Assembly: GCF_003664995.1 (NCBI RefSeq)
Contig: NZ_JFHL01000026.1
Span: 1-64,000 of the forward strand
DNA: 64,000 nucleotides
Direction of reading: 5' to 3'
From: Mesotoga sp. BH458_6_3_2_1
Lineage (GTDB): Bacteria; Thermotogota; Thermotogae; Petrotogales; Kosmotogaceae
This document shows positions 1,894-39,459 of this stretch, piece after piece. How positions within the stretch are numbered: position 1 is the first letter of the stretch; each line of letters starts with the position of its first letter. Below the pieces are notes generated by a model that worked only from the letters and a program-made list of their open reading frames with translations, did not search any database and was not told the DNA's origin. The translations under genes were made by a program, and so were the position numbers.

Positions 1894-3138
1894 ATCTTTG
1901 AGTAGATCCCGTGGTCTTGTTTTGAGTTCTTTGAAAGCATCGTGAGCATTGCCCGTTATCTTGGTACATGAAAGTCCATGTATCAAGAATTAGAAGAAAA
2001 TACTTGACACTAGACTTTTCAGGATTTGCTGATCTCAATCGATGGATTGGATACTCTCTCTTCAATTCATCTGTCCTAATGAGTGTACTGACAAAGAAAT
2101 TGAAGGATACTTGACTGAACGAGCCGTATTCAGTCGGGAAGCTGTTCTCGAGATTGGAACTCTGGTGTGAGTCGACTATTCGGGAAGATATGGTCATATT
2201 CTTAACGAGGTTACAAAATCCTAGCGCCTTATCCAAAACGCTCTAAAATCTGTATATTGATTCATAGTTATAATTATGCGGATCTTTCCCTCTCAAAGTA
2301 ATGAACTCATGCATTTTGCTTACCTTTGTGATGTCGAATTTCGTCAACTAGTGTTGTTTATGTCCATTTAAAAGCCGTTTCTTTGGATCACTTCGAGTTT
2401 GTGGCCTCTTAACACGAGGATTCATTGTTGGTCCAGATGTTTTTGGCACTAGGAAATACAGTACTTGGCCAAATAAAAATCCAGAACCCGGGATTAACTG
2501 TTTAGCCTCTAATGATAGAGTCTCCAATCTTTAAATCTGCAGACAAAAGTCGGGACTCCATTTTTTGAAGATCGGCTCTTTGTTCCGGAGCTAGGAGCTT
2601 TGTTCTTCGTTCGCAAGAGCGGAAGAGCGTCAAAACACGAGATGAAGAGAGAGGACGAGAAAAAGAGGGTTCTTTTCTCTCCTGAGCGAAGCGAACTCTC
2701 GAAATCTCTAGTGATCTCTCTTGGCTCTTAAAAGAACTCTCGACAAGAGATCGGAACCCGAGAAACCGGGGATTCTTTAATTTTGAAGTAACGCTTTCCT
2801 TTTCGGCTTCTACATTGCTTATCTGTCAATGTTTACAGACATTCATAACCGTTATGTTCTTCTTAAAGTGTTACCATCAACTTCGGAGCAAATGTACCCA
2901 TTGATCCTTCAAAACAGGTTTATTGTAATGGTGGAAGGCAACTCTGACGTTTCAGTAAGCGCCGAAAATTGTCTCAAAATTTGAAAAAAGATATCAAGCT
3001 TTTGCTCCACTTAACCCTTTGCTCTTGCCTATCAGCGTCAGGAAAGGAGGTGTGAAGTCTGCTGAAGAGAACGTAAGAGAAAGGAGAAGTCGGGAGTGAC
3101 AAGAGCGAGAAAATGAATCGATCAAAGGAGGGATTGTA
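1894..3138. other. Long non-coding stretch with a dispersed repeat
   Basis: No credible gene seen in about 1.25 kb. A 146-codon minus-strand ORF (to 2236) has low-complexity, non-protein-like composition and overlaps the dispersed repeat at 1799-1893. A segment at 2379-2440 is repeated at 7808-7872 (shared core GATCACTTCGAGT and GTTGGTCCAGAT). The stretch 2640-2770 is rich in GAGAG/CTCTC words. The last 130 bases are purine-rich and end in the AAAGGAGGG site of the gene at 3139. Confidence 0.5.
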
Positions 3139-4536: not shown

Positions 4537-5325
4537 CTATCCTTCTTCAAGATCGGCTTCTACAATTTCGTAGAACTCTTCTCTTGCATGTCTTTCCATC
4601 CAGGGCATGTGGCCGCATCTTTCCAGAAGCCTGAACTTGAAATCCTTGAGTACCCTTGAAAGCGGGATCTCAACACCCTCTGCAGGATGGGGGTCGAAAT
4701 CGCCATGGACTGCAAGGACGGGACAGCGAATTTTCTTGCCACTCTCGAGAAGCTCTCCGCTGCTTCTCATCTCTGAGGCCTCAGTCCAAACGCTCTTGAA
4801 TATCTCTGCATCGATATTGACTTCTACTCTTTCTGCATCTTCGAGAAGATCAAAGTGATCTGTCTTTGCCATGAGTTTTCTGAATTCAGATAGCATTTCT
4901 CTATCTTTGAGTTCTGCATTGCTCAAGAGGCCCATTAGCTCTTCGACTCTAGCCTTCTCTTTTGCGCCAAGACGGTTCAAGCGAGTATTCATAATACCGG
5001 AAGCGTAGTGCTGTTCGAAAGGACCGCTGCTTATGAGTATTATCCTATTCACAAGATCGCTATACTCTGCCGCAAACAAGAAGACGAGCCATGCACCCCA
5101 AGAATGTCCCAAAAGAATAACCGGAGGAGAGCAATACTTCTCGACAGTCTCCCTCAATTCCTCTATTTGTCCTGATACTGTTTTCTTTGTCTGATAGGGC
5201 TCTAGAACTCCCCGCTTCTTTCCAAGCTCTCTAGCAAGAGGCGCGACTCCTCCGGCCGCTCCCGGCCCTCCGTGGGCAACTATAACTTTGAATGGAGGAT
5301 CACCGTACATTCTGAGATTATTCAT
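4537..5325 (-). CDS. Alpha/beta hydrolase, proline iminopeptidase-like (intact copy 2)
   Basis: The 262-residue protein has an HGGPG motif near residue 17, a GHSWG nucleophile elbow, a HGDFDPHP segment that supplies the acid, and CGHMPWMERH near the C-terminus with the catalytic histidine. HGGPG is typical of the S33 prolyl aminopeptidase group, though many relatives act on other small esters or amides, so the substrate is open. The start at 5325 is chosen because GGAGG lies seven to eight bases upstream; a longer ORF reaches 5412. The gene is almost identical to the broken copy at 912-1690. It is monocistronic, with no terminator seen downstream. Confidence 0.85.
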   Translation of the reverse strand: MNNLRMYGDPPFKVIVAHGGPGAAGGVAPLARELGKKRGVLEPYQTKKTVSGQIEELRETVEKYCSPPVILLGHSWGAWLVFLFAAEYSDLVNRIILISSGPFEQHYASGIMNTRLNRLGAKEKARVEELMGLLSNAELKDREMLSEFRKLMAKTDHFDLLEDAERVEVNIDAEIFKSVWTEASEMRSSGELLESGKKIRCPVLAVHGDFDPHPAEGVEIPLSRVLKDFKFRLLERCGHMPWMERHAREEFYEIVEADLEEG

Positions 5326-14546: not shown

Positions 14547-15953
14547 GTGGTTTCAAAGAGACTGGTAATTACGTGCTTCCTACTGCTTGTGATGATCTCG
14601 AGCTTATTTTCCGTTCAGCCGGAGCTGACTCTTGATCCGGCTGAGGCAAAGTCCATAGCGAGAGAGGCCTATATTTTCGCCTACCCTATGCTTGAGAACT
14701 ACAGAACAATGTACCTGCAATTATTGAGCTGGGGAAAGCCGAACGAATTCACACATTTCAAACAGCTGTACGGGCCCAAGAACACGATGATTGTCCGTCC
14801 TAACAACGACACCGTTTACTCAATGGTATGGATGGATCTTACGGTCGAACCAATTGTGATATCCATTCCAGAGATTCAAAACCGATACTTCGCATTCCAG
14901 CTAGTTGACATGTACACTCACAATCTAGATTATATTGGAGCGAGAACTACCGGCCCTGGCCCGACGACATTCATGGTTGCCGGTCCCAAATGGGAAGGGG
15001 AAATCCCCTCAGGGATAGATAAGGTGGTCTTCAGCGAAGGCAATTTCGTCTACTGTGTAGTGAGAACGGGCGTGAACAGTGAACTTGAAGGAGACCTTCA
15101 GAAGGTTCTCGAGATACAACAGCAGTACAAATCGCAAACTCTCAACGATTATTGCGGAAATCCCGTCATGGAAGAGAGTCACACCTTGGATCTTCCTCCT
15201 TTCGATCAAGCCGTTGCAGACTCGATCGGGTTTATCGGATACTTCAACTTTCTTCTCGGGCAGCTCGAGATACACCCTTCGGAGAAAGATCTCATTCAGG
15301 GTTTTTCGAAGATTGGAATCGGACCTGACTATCCGTTCGACCCCACAGGTTTTTCAGAACCGATCAGAGAAGCTATAGAGGCGGCGATTGTTGAAGCCCG
15401 GGATGAAATCTATGCAATGGAGACAAAGATAGGAACCATCCAGGACGGCTGGTCTCTGCCAGAGAGAATCTTCGGGAATAGAGAAAGGATGCAGGGACTA
15501 TATCTGATGAGGGCGGCGGCGGCCCATCTGGGATTATATGGAAACGATCTCGAAGAGACTTTTTATCCTAACTGCCTGTTCGACGGTGATGGCGAAACGC
15601 TTGATGCTTCAGAATACAATTACGTGATTAACTTCAGTAAGGATCAGCTGCCTCCGGTTGATCCAAGAGGATTCTGGTCGCTAACAATGTACAACGAAGG
15701 CCAGCAATTTGTCGAGAATCCCCTAAATAGATACTCTATCGGCGATCGATCCAAACTGAAATATGGCGAGGACGGTTCTCTCGTTCTATATCTGCAACAT
15801 GAATCTCCGGGAGCGTCGAAGGAGTCGAACTGGCTTCCGACACCTGACGGGGAGTTCAAGCTCACCATGAGAATCTACATACCGCTGCCCGAAGGTCTGG
15901 ATCCTCTTTACTGTCCGCCGCCAGTTCAAAAAGCCGGTGCTGTCGGTGAGTAG
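14547..15953 (+). CDS. Exported DUF1254/DUF1214 domain protein
   Basis: The 468-residue protein starts at GTG seven bases after AGGAGG. Residues 1-23 form a signal peptide (VITCFLLLVMISSLFSV). The DUF1254 domain follows (AREAYIFAYPMLENYRTMY, then PNNDTVYSMVWMDL with the conserved N-N-D-T segment) and the C-terminal DUF1214 domain contains RGFWSLTMYNE, NRYSIGDRS, YLQHESPG and SNWLPTPDGEF. These paired domains occur in periplasmic proteins of unknown biochemical role in many bacteria. No partner gene is adjacent. Confidence 0.88.
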   Translation: MVSKRLVITCFLLLVMISSLFSVQPELTLDPAEAKSIAREAYIFAYPMLENYRTMYLQLLSWGKPNEFTHFKQLYGPKNTMIVRPNNDTVYSMVWMDLTVEPIVISIPEIQNRYFAFQLVDMYTHNLDYIGARTTGPGPTTFMVAGPKWEGEIPSGIDKVVFSEGNFVYCVVRTGVNSELEGDLQKVLEIQQQYKSQTLNDYCGNPVMEESHTLDLPPFDQAVADSIGFIGYFNFLLGQLEIHPSEKDLIQGFSKIGIGPDYPFDPTGFSEPIREAIEAAIVEARDEIYAMETKIGTIQDGWSLPERIFGNRERMQGLYLMRAAAAHLGLYGNDLEETFYPNCLFDGDGETLDASEYNYVINFSKDQLPPVDPRGFWSLTMYNEGQQFVENPLNRYSIGDRSKLKYGEDGSLVLYLQHESPGASKESNWLPTPDGEFKLTMRIYIPLPEGLDPLYCPPPVQKAGAVGE

Positions 15954-18994: not shown

Positions 18995-19023
18995 TTGTTT
19001 CAGATGAAGCAAGATGGTATTCT
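18995..19023 (+). promoter_or_regulatory. Predicted sigma-70-type promoter of the LacI operon
   Basis: TTGTTT at 18995-19000 and TATTCT at 19018-19023 are separated by exactly 17 bases. The expected transcription start falls at or just before the operator palindrome at 19031. Confidence 0.6.
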
Positions 19024-19030
19024 TCTTATG

Positions 19031-19056
19031 AGTAATCGATTACGTAATCGATTACT
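19031..19056 (+). promoter_or_regulatory. 26-bp palindromic operator, two abutting GTAATCGATTAC sites
   Basis: The perfectly self-complementary 12-mer GTAATCGATTAC occurs twice with no spacer (19032-19043 and 19044-19055), flanked by A and T so that the whole 26 bp is one perfect palindrome. A central CG in an AT-rich palindrome is typical of LacI-family operators. It lies between the predicted -10 box and the ribosome site of the LacI-family gene, where a bound repressor would block transcription, so autoregulation of the operon is likely. Confidence 0.85.
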
Positions 19057-19075
19057 TAGAGAAGGAGAAGTGAAG

Positions 19076-20077
19076 ATGGCCGTTAGAATTAAAGATGTAG
19101 CGCGGAGGGCAGGAGTTTCAACTGCCACTGTTTCAAGAGTCCTGAATAACGTTTCCACAGTCAGTGAAGAGAATAGAGAAAACGTTCTCAAAGCGGTCAA
19201 GGAGATGGGCTACAGTCCTAACGTTCTGGCCAGGGGCTTCAGAATGAAGAAGACTTTCACCGTGGGGATGGTCCTTCCAGATCTATCCAATCCACACTTC
19301 CCGTTGATGATGAAAGGTGCGGAGGAAGAACTCCGAAGAAAGAGCTACAACCTGATAATTGCCAATTCAGATGGCAAGCTGGAATTCGAGAGGGAGGCAA
19401 TAAGTACGCTCCTTTCAAAGCATGTCGATGGAATTCTCTTCATTGGATCCGGCTACAATAAATCGGTTGAAACCCTAATAGAGGAATCCGGGTGCCCGAT
19501 CGTGTTATTGGGAAGACGCTGGTCCAAGACTCTTCCATCAGTTTCCATAGACAACTTCAGCGCCATGAAGCACGTTTTTGATCACCTTTACAGCGAAGGG
19601 CACAGGAGTTTTCTTTATCTTGGCGGTCCTGAAGATGTTTCGAGTTCAATAGATAGAGAAGAGGCTGCCAGGGCTGTTGCGCAAGAATATTCCGGCGTAG
19701 TGGTGAAGATAACGAGAGGGCAGTTCACATATGAATCCGGTTATGAAAGGGCGTTCTCTGAGCTGTCGGACCACGGAAGCGGTTATGACGCGGTTGTCTG
19801 TGCGAACGATCTGATAGCCTTCGGAGCTCTTGTTTCGTGTAAGGCTCTTTCGATAGGAGTTCCCGAAGAGGTATCGGTCACCGGATTCGACAACATCTTC
19901 CTTTCGGCCCAGTTCACTCCGGCTCTGACAACTCTGGATCAGAACACATACGAAATAGGAAGAAGGGCCGCGAACCTACTGCTCCAGTATATAAGCGGCG
20001 AGAGGAAGAACAAGATCTCTTTTCAACTAGGAACCAGGCTGATTATCAGAGAATCTTCAAGGGCACGAAGGAAGTGA
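19076..20077 (+). CDS. LacI-family transcriptional regulator
   Basis: The 333-residue protein starts with a classical LacI helix-turn-helix and hinge (IKDVARRAGVSTATVSRVLNN, residues 5-25) followed by the periplasmic-binding-protein-like effector domain (TVGMVLPDLSNPHFPLMMKG, VDGILFIGSG, SVSIDNFSAM, AVVCANDLIAFGAL, VSVTGFDN). Upstream ORF extensions run through the operator and are discarded. The ATG at 19076 is used; a GTG six bases earlier is possible. It is the first gene of an operon with the metallophosphoesterase and Ugp-like transporter and probably represses its own operon through the palindrome at 19031-19056. The inducer is presumably the transported substrate. Confidence 0.92.
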   Translation: MAVRIKDVARRAGVSTATVSRVLNNVSTVSEENRENVLKAVKEMGYSPNVLARGFRMKKTFTVGMVLPDLSNPHFPLMMKGAEEELRRKSYNLIIANSDGKLEFEREAISTLLSKHVDGILFIGSGYNKSVETLIEESGCPIVLLGRRWSKTLPSVSIDNFSAMKHVFDHLYSEGHRSFLYLGGPEDVSSSIDREEAARAVAQEYSGVVVKITRGQFTYESGYERAFSELSDHGSGYDAVVCANDLIAFGALVSCKALSIGVPEEVSVTGFDNIFLSAQFTPALTTLDQNTYEIGRRAANLLLQYISGERKNKISFQLGTRLIIRESSRARRK

Positions 20078-22208: not shown

Positions 22209-23102
22209 TTGAAGACGAAAACGAAAAAGAAGATTCTGCCGTGGATTTTCATAGCGCCGACATTCTTTTTCCTTGGCATGTTTACATACTACCCGGCATT
22301 CAGGTCTCTCTTTCTGAGTTTCATGAGAATGAATATGGCAACGCCGGAGCCGGTGTTTACGGGCCTCGACAATTTCAAGAGAGCCTTCTCGACTCCTCTC
22401 TTCTGGCAGGTAGCTGGGAACAATCTCTTCTACGCATTTGTGACGGTCCCCATAACTATGGCTCTGGCGTTGGTTCTTGCTCTTCTTGTGAACCAGAAGA
22501 TCTTCGGCAGCTCTTTCTTCAAGACCACCTATTTCTACCCCAACGTCATACCGATGGCCGCCGCTTCAATGATCTGGTTGTACATCTTTCTTCCAGGCTA
22601 TGGTTTTTTGAATTACACTCTCGGTAAGATAGGCATCCCCAGCATAGAGTGGGTAAGCGACAGCAGGTTTGCTATGTGGGCTTTGATCATAGTTGCCGTC
22701 TGGAAGAACGCAGGATACTATATGGTGATCTTTCTCGGCGGATTGCAGCAGCTTCCCACGGAGATCTATGAAGTCGCCACTATAGATGGGGCCTCAGCCT
22801 GGCGGAAATTCTGGAAGATAACCTGGCCCTTGCTATCGCCGACAACATTCTTCGCATTCATAATCGCGGTAATAAACTCCTTCCAGGCAGTTGATCAGAT
22901 CTATCTAATGACGAGAGGCGGTCCGGCAAACACTACGAACATGTTTGTCTACTACATCTATCAGGTAGCCTTCAAGTACTGGGACTTCGGTTATGCCTCC
23001 GCACTAACCGTAATACTCCTTGTCCTCTTGTTGATATTCACAGTCCTCGCCTTCTTCTTCATGGAAAGGAGAGTCTTCTATGAATCGGGTGAGAGACTAT
23101 GA
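22209..23102 (+). CDS. ABC sugar/glycerol-phosphate permease, UgpA/MalF-like
   Basis: This 297-residue integral membrane protein has six hydrophobic segments beginning at ILPWIFIAPTFFFLGMF. The EAA loop (EIYEVATIDGASAWRKFWKITWPLLSP) that docks the ATPase lies near residue 190. The start is taken as TTG 22209, eight bases after GGGAGG; the open frame begins slightly earlier at a GTG overlapping that site. It overlaps the next permease by four bases (ATGA). Confidence 0.9.
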   Translation: MKTKTKKKILPWIFIAPTFFFLGMFTYYPAFRSLFLSFMRMNMATPEPVFTGLDNFKRAFSTPLFWQVAGNNLFYAFVTVPITMALALVLALLVNQKIFGSSFFKTTYFYPNVIPMAAASMIWLYIFLPGYGFLNYTLGKIGIPSIEWVSDSRFAMWALIIVAVWKNAGYYMVIFLGGLQQLPTEIYEVATIDGASAWRKFWKITWPLLSPTTFFAFIIAVINSFQAVDQIYLMTRGGPANTTNMFVYYIYQVAFKYWDFGYASALTVILLVLLLIFTVLAFFFMERRVFYESGERL

Positions 23103-23932
23103 CGAAAAGAGGAAGAACGACCAGATTGGTCTCGATTACCCTGATGATAGTCTTTGCCGTGATTCTAGCTTTCCCTCTTTACTGGATAGTCGTTACGGCT
23201 TTCAAAGATCCGACTGAAGTCTTCTCGATGGTCCCAAAGTGGCTTCCCGAAAAATGGACGCTTGACAACTTCAAAGAGGTCTTCAACATAATCCCCTTCG
23301 GGAGATACTATTTCAACACGATTCTCTATGCCTTTGGACTTCTCGCAGTGCAGCTTGTAACAGTTACTCTTGCCGCTTACGCTTTCGCCAGAATGGAATT
23401 CAGATTCAAGAAGATTCTCTTCATAATTCTGCTTGTGCAGCTCATGATTGCTCCACAGACTCTCATAGTGCCGAACTACTTGACGATCAGCAACATGGGC
23501 CTGCTAGATACGAAAACGGCCATTGCACTTCCTTATGTGGCATCTGCGATCGGCGTCTTCTTGCTGAGGCAAGGCTTCGCCGCAATCCCGAGAGAACTGG
23601 AAGAAGCGGCGACTATTGACGGCTGCGGAACCTTCAGGTTCATGATCTCGATAGCAATTCCGTTGCTTAAGCCTACCTATCTTGCCTTTACGCTCATAAG
23701 CGTCACGTATCACTGGAACGAATTCTTCTGGCCCCTGATAGTTACAGACAGCGTGAAGGCCCGAACGCTGACAGTCGGTCTAGCCATGTTGGCCGAGGCT
23801 TCAGAGAGCGCAGCTGCATGGACGCTACTTATGGCGGCGACGCTTCTGGTAATACTGCCTTTAATAATCTTCTTCGCCATTTTCCAGAAGACATTCATAT
23901 CCAGTTTCATGCAGTCAGGAATGAAGGGGTAA
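23099..23932 (+). CDS. ABC sugar/glycerol-phosphate permease, UgpE/MalG-like
   Basis: The 277-residue protein has a first membrane segment at residues about 13-32 (LMIVFAVILAFPLYWIVVTAF), five more segments, and the EAA loop ELEEAATIDGCGTFRFMISIAIPLLKP. It is the partner of the preceding permease in a heterodimeric CUT1 channel. No ATPase gene follows before the intergenic repeats, so a shared MsmK/UgpC-type ATPase encoded elsewhere is needed. The operon ends here; a tandem hairpin array begins 40 bases downstream. Confidence 0.9.
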   Translation: MTKRGRTTRLVSITLMIVFAVILAFPLYWIVVTAFKDPTEVFSMVPKWLPEKWTLDNFKEVFNIIPFGRYYFNTILYAFGLLAVQLVTVTLAAYAFARMEFRFKKILFIILLVQLMIAPQTLIVPNYLTISNMGLLDTKTAIALPYVASAIGVFLLRQGFAAIPRELEEAATIDGCGTFRFMISIAIPLLKPTYLAFTLISVTYHWNEFFWPLIVTDSVKARTLTVGLAMLAEASESAAAWTLLMAATLLVILPLIIFFAIFQKTFISSFMQSGMKG

Positions 23933-23972
23933 CGGATAGGACCGGGGTCGGGGATTGGAAAGAGCGGAATAG

Positions 23973-24077
23973 GACGCAAGGCGCCGGAATGCATCGGCGG
24001 ACGCAAGGCTGGGAAGAACATCCCAGGTCGCAATGCTGGCAAAGATCGCGCCAGGATGCAATGCCCGCTTCGCTGGG
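23973..24077. repeat. Tandem hairpin array A (four units)
   Basis: Units start at 23973, 24000, 24027 and 24055 (27-28 bp period). Each begins with an 8-nt tag (GACGCAAG, GACGCAAG, GTCGCAAT, GATGCAAT) and continues into a short inverted repeat whose sequence differs per unit: CGCCG/CGGCG, CTGGGA/TCCCAG, CTGGC/GCCAG, and a weak CCC/GGG pair. Stems change while pairing is kept. It lies 40 bp after the UgpE-like gene. Confidence 0.75.
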
Positions 24078-24799
24078 AAAGAACCGATTTCGCTTAGGAG
24101 AATACTCTGTCTGTTTTGAAGAGCATTTTCATGATGCAAGTTGTATGAATAACCGGGGTTACGGGTAGCAGGCTTGGAATTGGAAGGAGCATAGGAACTG
24201 GTTGGCCGTTGAGCGGTTCTTCGTTCTCCGAATAAAAAACCAGTTGTTCGTTCCAGAGCGAAGATCAGTTCTTCGTTCTTGGTTGGAGCCAATGAAGCAA
24301 TAGCATCCAGATTCCGACCAGGAGCTTTGTCGGAATGACGGAATCTGGCCTTTTTGCAACAACCATTAGTTGTCATACCGCCTGCCTTGTTCTGTTTATG
24401 TCATCCCGCCCGAACTTGTTTCGGGATCTTGGTGTTGATTTTATGCAAGGATGGGTCCATGATCTGGGGCTGGATACGAGGCCCGTTTTTCACAGCGAGC
24501 AGCGGGTTTTTGCTCTTAAACGTAAAGAGGATCCTAGGATCTAGATGCTGAAACAAGTTCAGCATGACGGAATCCCTGACGAAGAACCAAGAAGAGGATT
24601 ATGTGGGTAATAATGAGCCTTGGAGAAGGTGCCGACTACTCTGCCGTAGATGGGGTGTGTCTCACCGGGTCTTCTCGGAGGACGGTGGACCGATAACGGA
24701 TAACCATTATCAAATCTAGACTTCTAATGATCAACTCGAGCAGCCCGTTTTGTCTTCTTCATCTCGGCGCTATTCATACACAATTTGTAAGGTAAAAAG
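24078..24799. other. Repeat-rich intergenic island
   Basis: No gene is supported here. It contains hairpin elements of the GTCAT...ATCT family at 24311-24336 (ATTCCGAC/GTCGGAAT), 24400-24428 (CCCGAA/TTCGGG) and 24545-24565 (ATGCTGAA/TTCAGCAT), preceded by blocks shared with the islands at 30960-31130, 31477-31535 and 38610-38790. ORFs on either strand in this island are repeat translations. Confidence 0.65.
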
Positions 24800-30537: not shown

Positions 30538-30576
30538 AACCGTGGTTGGGGGTCGGAGTTGGTGGCATCAAGATCA

Positions 30577-30676
30577 GAAGTGATGCTGCCTCCGGCAGGA
30601 AGTGAGGCTCGCTGGCGCGAGGAAGTGATGCCCGGGAGGAGCATCCGGGGAAGTGATGCTGGCACTTACGCACCAG
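30577..30676. repeat. Tandem hairpin array B (four units)
   Basis: Units start at 30577, 30599, 30622 and 30650. Each opens with the tag GAAGTGATGC (unit 2 reads GAAGTGAGGC), then a small stem that differs each time: CTGCC/GGCAG, CTCGC/GCGAG, CCCGG/CCGGG and CTGG/CCAG, and closes on GA, which begins the next tag. Tag conserved, stems covarying. Placement relative to the operon end matches array A. Confidence 0.8.
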
Positions 30677-31210
30677 GAGGCAAAAACCAAAGAAAAAGAG
30701 CAAGCAAATTGAAGTAATCAGATAAGGACGAACTTACTCTGTCATCCTGAAATGCTCCTATTCAGGATCTGGGATTTTCTAAGAACCGTGGTCGGGGGTA
30801 GCGGGTTGGTGGTAGGAAAGAGCAAAGGAACTGGTCCATCGTTGAACGGTTAGCCGTTCGCCGAAAAGAACAGTTGTAAGTTCCAAGATATGAGTTGTAA
30901 AAAAGGCCGGGGTCGGAGGTTGGTGGTTGGAGGTTCGTAAGAGCAAAAGAAACTGGCTGATGACCGCTGAGCGGTTCTCCGTTCTCCGAATAAAAAACCA
31001 GTTGTTCGTTCCAGAGCGAGGATCTTTTCTTTGTTCTTGGTTGAAGCCGTGAAGCACTAGCATCGAGATTCCGACCAGGAGCTTTGTCGGAATGACGGAA
31101 TTGGGCGTTTTCGGAATAACCGTTCTTGGTCAGACCCATTTATTCAGAGAGTAGAGAGAAGGGAAAAGCAAAGAGAACAGGTAAGGATCTTGGATATCGA
31201 AGAGCCTTTA

Positions 31211-31276: not shown

Positions 31277-31461
31277 CAAGAACGGACCACGTTCAGAATG
31301 ATTAAATTGGGAGTGCCTCGGATATGGTGAAAAAACGATTTGGTCTGCAGTCATCCCGGACTTGACCCAGGATCTGGTTCCAACAAGGAACAACGAAGGG
31401 AACCATTCTTCTCAGCGGAGGACGGTGGACTGTTGACGGGTAACGCGGTTTTTATCAGCGA
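31277..31461. repeat. 185-bp intergenic repeat, copy 1
   Basis: Matches 39256-39440 over its whole length with about four mismatches counted by eye. It includes the element GTCATCCCGGACTTGACCC, which forms an imperfect hairpin ending in AGGATCT. Confidence 0.8.
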
Positions 31462-32003
31462 TCAACGAATTTTTGCTCTTAAGCGCAAAGCGGATCTTAG
31501 GATCGAGATGCTGAAACAAGTTCAGCATGACGGAATCCCGGACGAAGAATCAAGAACTTGGACGCGTAGCGTTGGAACGAAGAACCGTTCTTTGACGATT
31601 TTTTATTCTTGGGCTTGCAACTTGGAACTACAACTTGCACCTGCTCTTTCGAAGGACGGGTTCATGATCTTGGACGAAGGACCAAGGACGGCTCTTTGCA
31701 GCGATCAGCGGGTTTTTGTTCTTAAGCGCAAAGCGGATCTTAGGATCGAGATGCTGAAACAAGTTCAGCATGACGAGTTGTAACGTTTTTGGAATAACCA
31801 TTCGCTGTCATCCAGAATTTGACCCAGGATCTGGTTCCAAGAAGGAACAACGAAGAACCGGTCTTCTGGACAGTGGACCGTTGACGGGTAACGCGGTTTT
31901 CATAGGTATGAAAGATTGAAAGGTTTAGCGACAGAGAATTCCGGAAGTGAGGCAGGGAAATATATTCATCTATATCCCTCACCTCTGGTTTGGGAGGTTC
32001 ACT

Positions 32004-39255: not shown

Positions 39256-39440
39256 CAAGAACGGACCACGTTCAGAATGATGAAATTGGGAGTGCCTCGG
39301 ATATGGTGAAAAAACGATTTGGTCTGCAGTCATCCAGGACTTGACCCAGGATCTGGTTCCAACAAGGAACAACGAAGGGAACCGTTCTTCTCAGCGGAGG
39401 ACGGTGGACCGTTGACGGGTAACGCGGTTTTTATCAGCGA
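39256..39440. repeat. 185-bp intergenic repeat, copy 2
   Basis: Near-identical to 31277-31461. Its right end abuts the last codons of the minus-strand gene at 39460-39891, which may therefore have been cut by the repeat. Confidence 0.8.
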
Positions 39441-39459
39441 GCAGCGGATCCAGGAAGAA

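Follow-up and report, generated by a model that had tools for sequence, protein, structure and literature searches.

The stretch of Mesotoga sp. BH458_6_3_2_1 DNA that we analysed (64,000 nucleotides, contig NZ_JFHL01000026.1; hereafter the window) carries, behind an ABC transporter gene, four direct repeats in which a short tag each time precedes a different hairpin. We asked what such an array is: a chance arrangement, a transcript-end structure, the product of a transposase, or one member of a repeat family.

Two arrays of similar design in the window

Inspection of the sequence confirmed array A on the plus strand at 23973-24076, where four direct units of 27, 27, 28 and 22 nt each begin with a 9-nt tag that runs directly into a hairpin, so that the four tag-plus-hairpin units first described there are real. 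The tags are, in order, GACGCAAGG, GACGCAAGG, GTCGCAATG and GATGCAATG. In unit 1 the tag (23973-23981) is followed by CGCCG-GAATGCAT-CGGCG (23982-23999), in unit 2 (tag 24000-24008) by CTGGG-AAGAACAT-CCCAG (24009-24026), and in unit 3 (tag 24027-24035) by CTGGC-AAAGATCGC-GCCAG (24036-24054). Unit 4 (tag 24055-24063) carries the terminal hairpin CCCGC-TTC-GCTGG (24064-24076), a copy, decayed at one base, of the CCCGC-TTC-GCGGG hairpin with which comparable arrays end at other loci. Array B (30577-30676, plus strand) also has four units, with the tag GAAGTGAKG and hairpins of the CTGCC, CTCGC, CCCGG and CTGGCAC/CTGGCGC types.

Array A starts 40 bp after the end of a gene (23099-23932) for an ABC transporter component (BPD_transp_1, Pfam), and array B 39 bp past the end (30537) of a gene for an ABC ATPase (Pfam). 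The gap is about 40 bp in both cases because both arrays follow G-rich leaders of the same kind, some 35 nt long (ACCGKGGTYGGGG...); the leader is ACCGGGGTCGGGGATTGGAAAGAGCGGAATAG at 23941-23972 in composite A and ACCGTGGTTGGGGGTCGGAGTTGGTGGCATCAAGATCA at 30539-30576 in composite B, both on the plus strand. Two further plus-strand hairpins, GTCATCCTGAA..TTCAGGATCTGG downstream of array B (30741-30772) and GTCATCCCG..CGGGATCTTGG in the intergenic region of array A (24400-24434), look like CGTC-type REPs as far as the text description in Di Nocera et al. 2013 goes.

The window contains other repeats as well. A 144-bp tandem repeat in three copies (1-467; units of 48 aa that to the eye resemble TPRs) lies mostly within the ORF 49-687. 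A 300-bp direct repeat with 97% identity (1019-1318 and 4654-4953) falls within two ORFs on the minus strand (280 and 291 aa) and may reflect recent paralogues or an insertion element. The sequence GTAATCGATTAC occurs twice in perfect tandem at 19032-19055, just inside the longest reading of the ORF 18995-20077 and before a sugar-type ABC operon, and looks like a putative regulator operator pair. Finally, a 194-bp repeat of 96% identity (31277-31470 and 39256-39449, 8 kb apart) is largely intergenic and belongs to the general intergenic mosaic.

Hairpin pairing is evident from covariation among units

Within the window alone, a single tag consensus was not enriched (4 found, 2.85 expected). 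Across sampled stretches of the window's own genome (G000) and of the genomes G001 and G004 there were 410 tag-to-tag cassettes. The terminal 5-nt arms were fully complementary in 319 of them, as against a mean of 37 and a maximum of 55 when the 3' arms were re-dealt (1000 trials); another 52 were intermediates, paired at four of the five positions. In 92 distinct 18-nt cassettes, picked regardless of pairing but with the same tag type required on both sides, 93.5% of cells paired, and covariation reached 0.562, compared with 0.114 for shuffled cassettes; slid structures did not exceed 0.123. The first of the five stem pairs was C-G in 90 of the 92 units, which says little, because the search pattern demanded the C (though not the G). 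The large excess of complementary arms, together with the covariation and the genome-wide two-tag matches given below, indicates that the array is more than chance, and it supports the tag with a variable self-complementary stem as a genome-wide architecture, as had been proposed from the window.

Folding energy gave the hairpins no support. Array A folded no better than its shuffled versions, either as RNA (z -0.04) or as the two DNA strands (z -0.32 and -0.07), and array B folded as RNA was unremarkable (z -1.16). The evidence for the hairpin is thus the covariation among units, not the folding stability of single arrays.

Loops measured 3-9 nt in the main stem types, and no CCA tail was seen. 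Within one stem type the arms and most tag positions were nearly invariant and loop positions 2-5 varied strongly; loop positions 1, 6 and 8 were conserved. This pattern bears on a mutational explanation, by which template switching during replication would correct imperfect palindromes and so keep the arms paired, with no part for selection or for an enzyme that requires a hairpin. The stem types CCGGC, CTGGC, CCGGG and CTGGG do differ by single paired changes, and the 4/5-paired intermediates exist. Moreover, in the small sample of copies compared between G000 and G001, there were three stem substitutions, each of which broke a pair and none of which was compensated. Correction of arms does not, however, explain the conserved tags and the three conserved loop positions, and we consider this explanation unlikely.

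A small library of stems behind two related tags

The sequence-only reading had taken the stems to differ freely from unit to unit. Instead, they fell into about a dozen recurring types. The commonest of the 85 distinct arm pairs among the 410 cassettes were CCCGG/CCGGG (63), CGCCG/CGGCG (56), CTGGC/GCCAG (43), CTCGC/GCGAG (36), CCGGC/GCCGG (29), CTGGG/CCCAG (23), CCGAC/GTCGG (22), CACTG/CAGTG (21) and CTGCC/GGCAG (13); the rest were mostly one-base departures or unpaired linkers. Many types are tag-specific: CTCGC, CCGAC and CTGCC occurred with tag A only, CCGGC and CACTG with tag B only.

The two tags, previously regarded as unrelated, did not prove to be so. GAAGTGATG and GACGCAATG are identical at 6 of 9 positions, 77 of the 410 adjacent pairs were of mixed tag type, and the two tags, present together in many arrays, alternated inside single ones. 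The tags are related versions within one family and not separate systems. Linkers such as CCTTATAAAACATTA had suggested a rule that a hairpin never stands between two different tags. We rejected it, since 44 of the 77 mixed-tag cassettes paired at four or more of the five positions, compared with 327 of the 333 same-tag cassettes, a large difference, though one between cassettes that are not independent. Unlike the unique spacers of a CRISPR, the segments that vary here come from a limited set of self-complementary stems used repeatedly.

Arrays are intergenic and indifferent to gene strand

We found 161 arrays in 1.22 Mb from three same-genus genomes, in stretches mostly selected for holding arrays and with tag patterns that demand C as the first stem base. 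Only two overlapped a called gene, at a coding fraction of 0.72 (by our own hexamer-based calls, not an annotation). Intergenic regions with arrays had a median length of 1278 bp (n=100), as against 306 bp for those without (n=327).

Strings of hairpins at the 3' ends of transcripts could stabilise mRNA or end transcription, and the position of both window arrays about 40 bp past operon ends, along with the covarying hairpins, would fit such an RNA role. As a rule, however, the placement after an operon, which had been noted for both window arrays, did not extend to the family: in only 42 of 97 distinct intergenic regions did the gene on the 5' side share the strand of the array, and the array started within 60 bp of the end of such a gene in only 16 of the 97. 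Nor did mismatches on the array strand favour GU, with 10 GU-type, 14 CA-type and 29 other mismatches among 200 distinct same-tag cassettes. No terminator-like site (a G+C stem followed by a T-run) was present inside array A, no Rfam model matched, and the folding scores given above were near zero for array A and modest for array B. The similar numbers of GU-type and CA-type mismatches and the random orientation relative to genes make it more likely, without proving it, that the arrays act as DNA or have no role than that they act as RNA. We therefore regard an RNA function as quite unlikely, and we rejected a transcription-linked element as the general rule because gene strand was indifferent and mismatches showed no GU bias. 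Of the two tests that the sequence-only reading had set itself, placement thus came out random with respect to gene strand, while the excess of complementary arms was strong.

Units are direct repeats in head-to-tail order, and neighbouring arrays tend to agree in orientation. Arrays less than 1 kb apart lay on the same strand in 42 cases and on opposite strands in 2, and orientation was mixed in 2 of 25 multi-array regions. By analogy with what has been proposed for BIMEs, arrays might bind a chromosomal protein, as nucleoid or topoisomerase sites. The conserved tag and stem, the nearly strictly intergenic placement and the long one-orientation blocks in G001 would agree with this. Yet these blocks were not significant after thinning (z -1.39 at 10 kb and -0.16 at 50 kb, from -3.5 for the raw runs), they did not follow the estimated G001 replichores cleanly (left 3 plus and 15 minus, right 13 plus and 14 minus), and complete relatives such as G008 had no match. 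A protein-binding role is, in our judgement, very unlikely. Orientation by replication strand, an idea prompted by arrays pointing one way along whole contigs, was likewise unsupported as a rule by these G001 runs, the sampled GC skew being noisy. We also observed that in G001:C1 (1.93-2.97 Mb) the A-type two-tag matches beyond 1.90 Mb all lie on the minus strand; replichores and gene strand, as tested, do not explain this.

A clade-restricted family whose distribution does not follow transposases

In the window's own genome, the pattern GAAGTGATGC gave 190 matches and its reversed form 7, while a B-type pattern with two tags gave 45 against 0; in G001 a two-tag A-type pattern gave 87 against 0. 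A covariance model built on the 92 units found matches in 7 of 10 same-genus genomes (G000, G001, G002, G004, G005, G006 and G009) and none in G003, G007 and G008; with scored candidates capped and filters set more strictly, the counts per genome are lower bounds. It also found units in 1 of 7 genomes from other genera of the family (G010, two matches) and in none of 44 more distant ones, so that by this model units were absent from 53 of the 61 genomes, including three of the same genus. A pattern scan of a genome collection returned at least 119 stretches; when the 80 listed were rescanned with the model, two matches were obtained, both in one Kosmotogaceae MAG. The tag pattern alone also occurred in a Mesotoga sp. 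record, which the model did not confirm among the 80 listed stretches. A similar scan of viral contigs gave at least 120 stretches; the 80 listed held a single match apiece, none of which was retained by the model. Plasmids gave no match to array A. The family is thus clade-restricted and abundant in the intergenic DNA of Mesotoga-type bacteria, and array A is one copy of this dispersed, lineage-specific repeat family.

The Y1/HUH enzymes of the genome (IS200-like, RAYT or TIRYT) might mobilise the units, with the tag as a guide sequence. The REPs recognised by TnpA-REP do have such an anatomy, with a tag directly 5' of a hairpin, and the available text of PMC8266576 describes recognition through the tetranucleotide 5' of the hairpin. 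G000 has two Y1_Tnp (IS200-like) genes, of 287 and 333 aa (loci L078 and L079), and one of them has an array upstream on the same strand. However, these genes are surrounded by GGGGACTGAC/GGGGACAGAC-type repeats and not by array units on both sides; such repeats are close to the GGGGWSAS motif that PMC3733652, in the text available, gives for TIR-associated transposases. Several arrays lie directly 3' of a GGGACAGACC-type repeat. Furthermore, no Y1_Tnp match was found in G001, G002, G006 or G009, all of which have units, whereas G007 and G008 have two such genes each and no units. We hold mobilisation by these enzymes to be highly improbable. Mobilisation by a RAYT as a necessary condition was rejected, since the presence of a transposase does not follow that of the units and the units do not flank transposase genes.

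Composites recur and turn over between loci and genomes

Composite B, with a near-identical leader, its units and a near tail, recurs at eight other loci, and the GGCATCAAGATCA-like end of its leader is shared by eight copies in G001 and by one other in G000; at a ninth locus (L192) the leader end is joined to different units. Composite A has two further copies, both in G001 and about 400 bp apart, and closely similar versions of its leader end are found in these two copies and in G002. At the site orthologous to array A, G002 has seven units with other stems but retains the leader, the GTCGCAATG tag in penultimate position and the hairpin at the end. No array was found at the orthologous site of array A in G004 or at those of array B in G007 and G008.

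In 11 pairs of G000 and G001 intergenic regions with both flanking genes matched, an array was present in neither member of 4, in both of 3 and in only one of 4. On alignment, one of the latter pairs (L081/L184) had a related, decayed array in both genomes, while L085/L182 and L082/L184 showed block differences, that is, presence or absence; the alignment did not extend to the fourth (L240/L179). Because the intergenic regions are highly mosaic, deletion by recombination and insertion are indistinguishable at such sites.

Two other observations concern these regions. At L190 (G001:C1:1732000-1744000), the arrays are repeated as parts of longer direct copies, spaced by a few hundred bp, which points to segmental duplication of entire composites. 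L081 (near 14703-15100) and L184 (near 2615-3000) contain, in both genomes, a loose intergenic tandem array of CGGGTT-type motifs every ~13-18 nt (AGAGCGGGTT..GATCGGGTT..).

We conclude that the arrays are probably lineage-specific REP-like intergenic palindromic repeats, arranged head-to-tail and spread by copying and reshuffling of composites. The observations behind this reading are the unit structure, the covariation, the recurring stem types, the intergenic placement, the head-to-tail order and the clade restriction, to which the orthologous sites add presence or absence and differing units. Counted against it are that no enzyme was identified, that the compared sites showed neither a target-site duplication nor an exact insertion boundary, that insertion and deletion look alike in such mosaic DNA, and that single arrays fold no better than shuffled ones. 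The unit is a 9-nt tag, in two related versions, flush to a hairpin with a stem of 5 bp or slightly longer, itself flush to the next tag; arrays are embedded in larger composites of leader, array and other palindromes. The hairpin would act as DNA, probably single-stranded during replication. Composites may reach new intergenic sites through a copying agent or through recombination between repeats, and shared tags would let units be exchanged within arrays. Alternatively, the constraint on tag and arms could mean a host function. A more speculative possibility, to which we give only a small chance, is a putative IS200-independent system for copying single-stranded DNA. It would recognise either of two 9-nt guide tags, along with whatever perfect hairpin lies between them, build head-to-tail arrays from a library of exchangeable stems and keep the arms complementary.

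Relation to known repeats and significance

The units share the general features of REPs, being mostly 20-28 nt long, palindromic, extragenic and present in many copies. Like the REPs and BIMEs of the GTAG super-family, in which palindromic units of 20-40 bp stand beside a short conserved unpaired tag, they are grouped, with several types per genome. In contrast to these, they have no GTAG (the tag flanks in the 92 aligned units are of GAAGTGAKG or GACGCAAKG type), lie head-to-tail and not in inverted pairs, and have no dedicated adjoining transposase. The BOX repeats of Streptococcus pneumoniae are modular intergenic elements with a variable number of internal units. The Mesotoga arrays resemble them in being modular and of variable unit number, but exchange the hairpin stems themselves.

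A further comparison is with CGTC REPs; Di Nocera et al. 2013 (PMC3733652) name CGTC-3 REPs in M. prima and K. olearia. According to the text available, these have a CGTC (or TGTC, CCTC) tag, an 8-9 bp stem starting with AT, a loop of 4-5 and a CCA tail, and their dimers are mainly head-to-head, with head-to-tail ones negligible. The B-type tag, though not the A-type tag, does place CGTC directly before the stem on the reverse strand, and a dedicated transposase is lacking in both cases. However, the Mesotoga stems are of 5 bp and start with C and not A-T, the tail is CATTG/CCTTG and not CCA, and the units form direct arrays. By that description the array units are not CGTC-3 REPs. CGTC-like REPs are present as separate hairpins in the same intergenic regions, where the GTCATCC...GGATC hairpins may be CGTC-3 REPs. 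As to the TIR/TIRYT elements of that text, the genome has both kinds of repeat, and the terminal repeats of the transposase genes are distinct from the array units. In the part of PMC12306157 available, REPs are counted in M. prima and Thermotogota REP motifs are said to resemble no others. In our literature search, which covered mainly papers outside subscription journals, we found no description of such tag-hairpin arrays.

In most cases REP-like repeats carry a GTAG or CGTC tag and pair in inverted orientation. The Mesotoga family has another tag, head-to-tail arrays, interchangeable stems and no obvious transposase, and it is abundant in one deep-branching genus. Hairpins after these operons should not be taken as terminators without data. 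Beyond this, the arrays offer naturally occurring compensatory stem variants through which one can ask whether copying machinery, mutation or a host function maintains the pairing of a palindrome.
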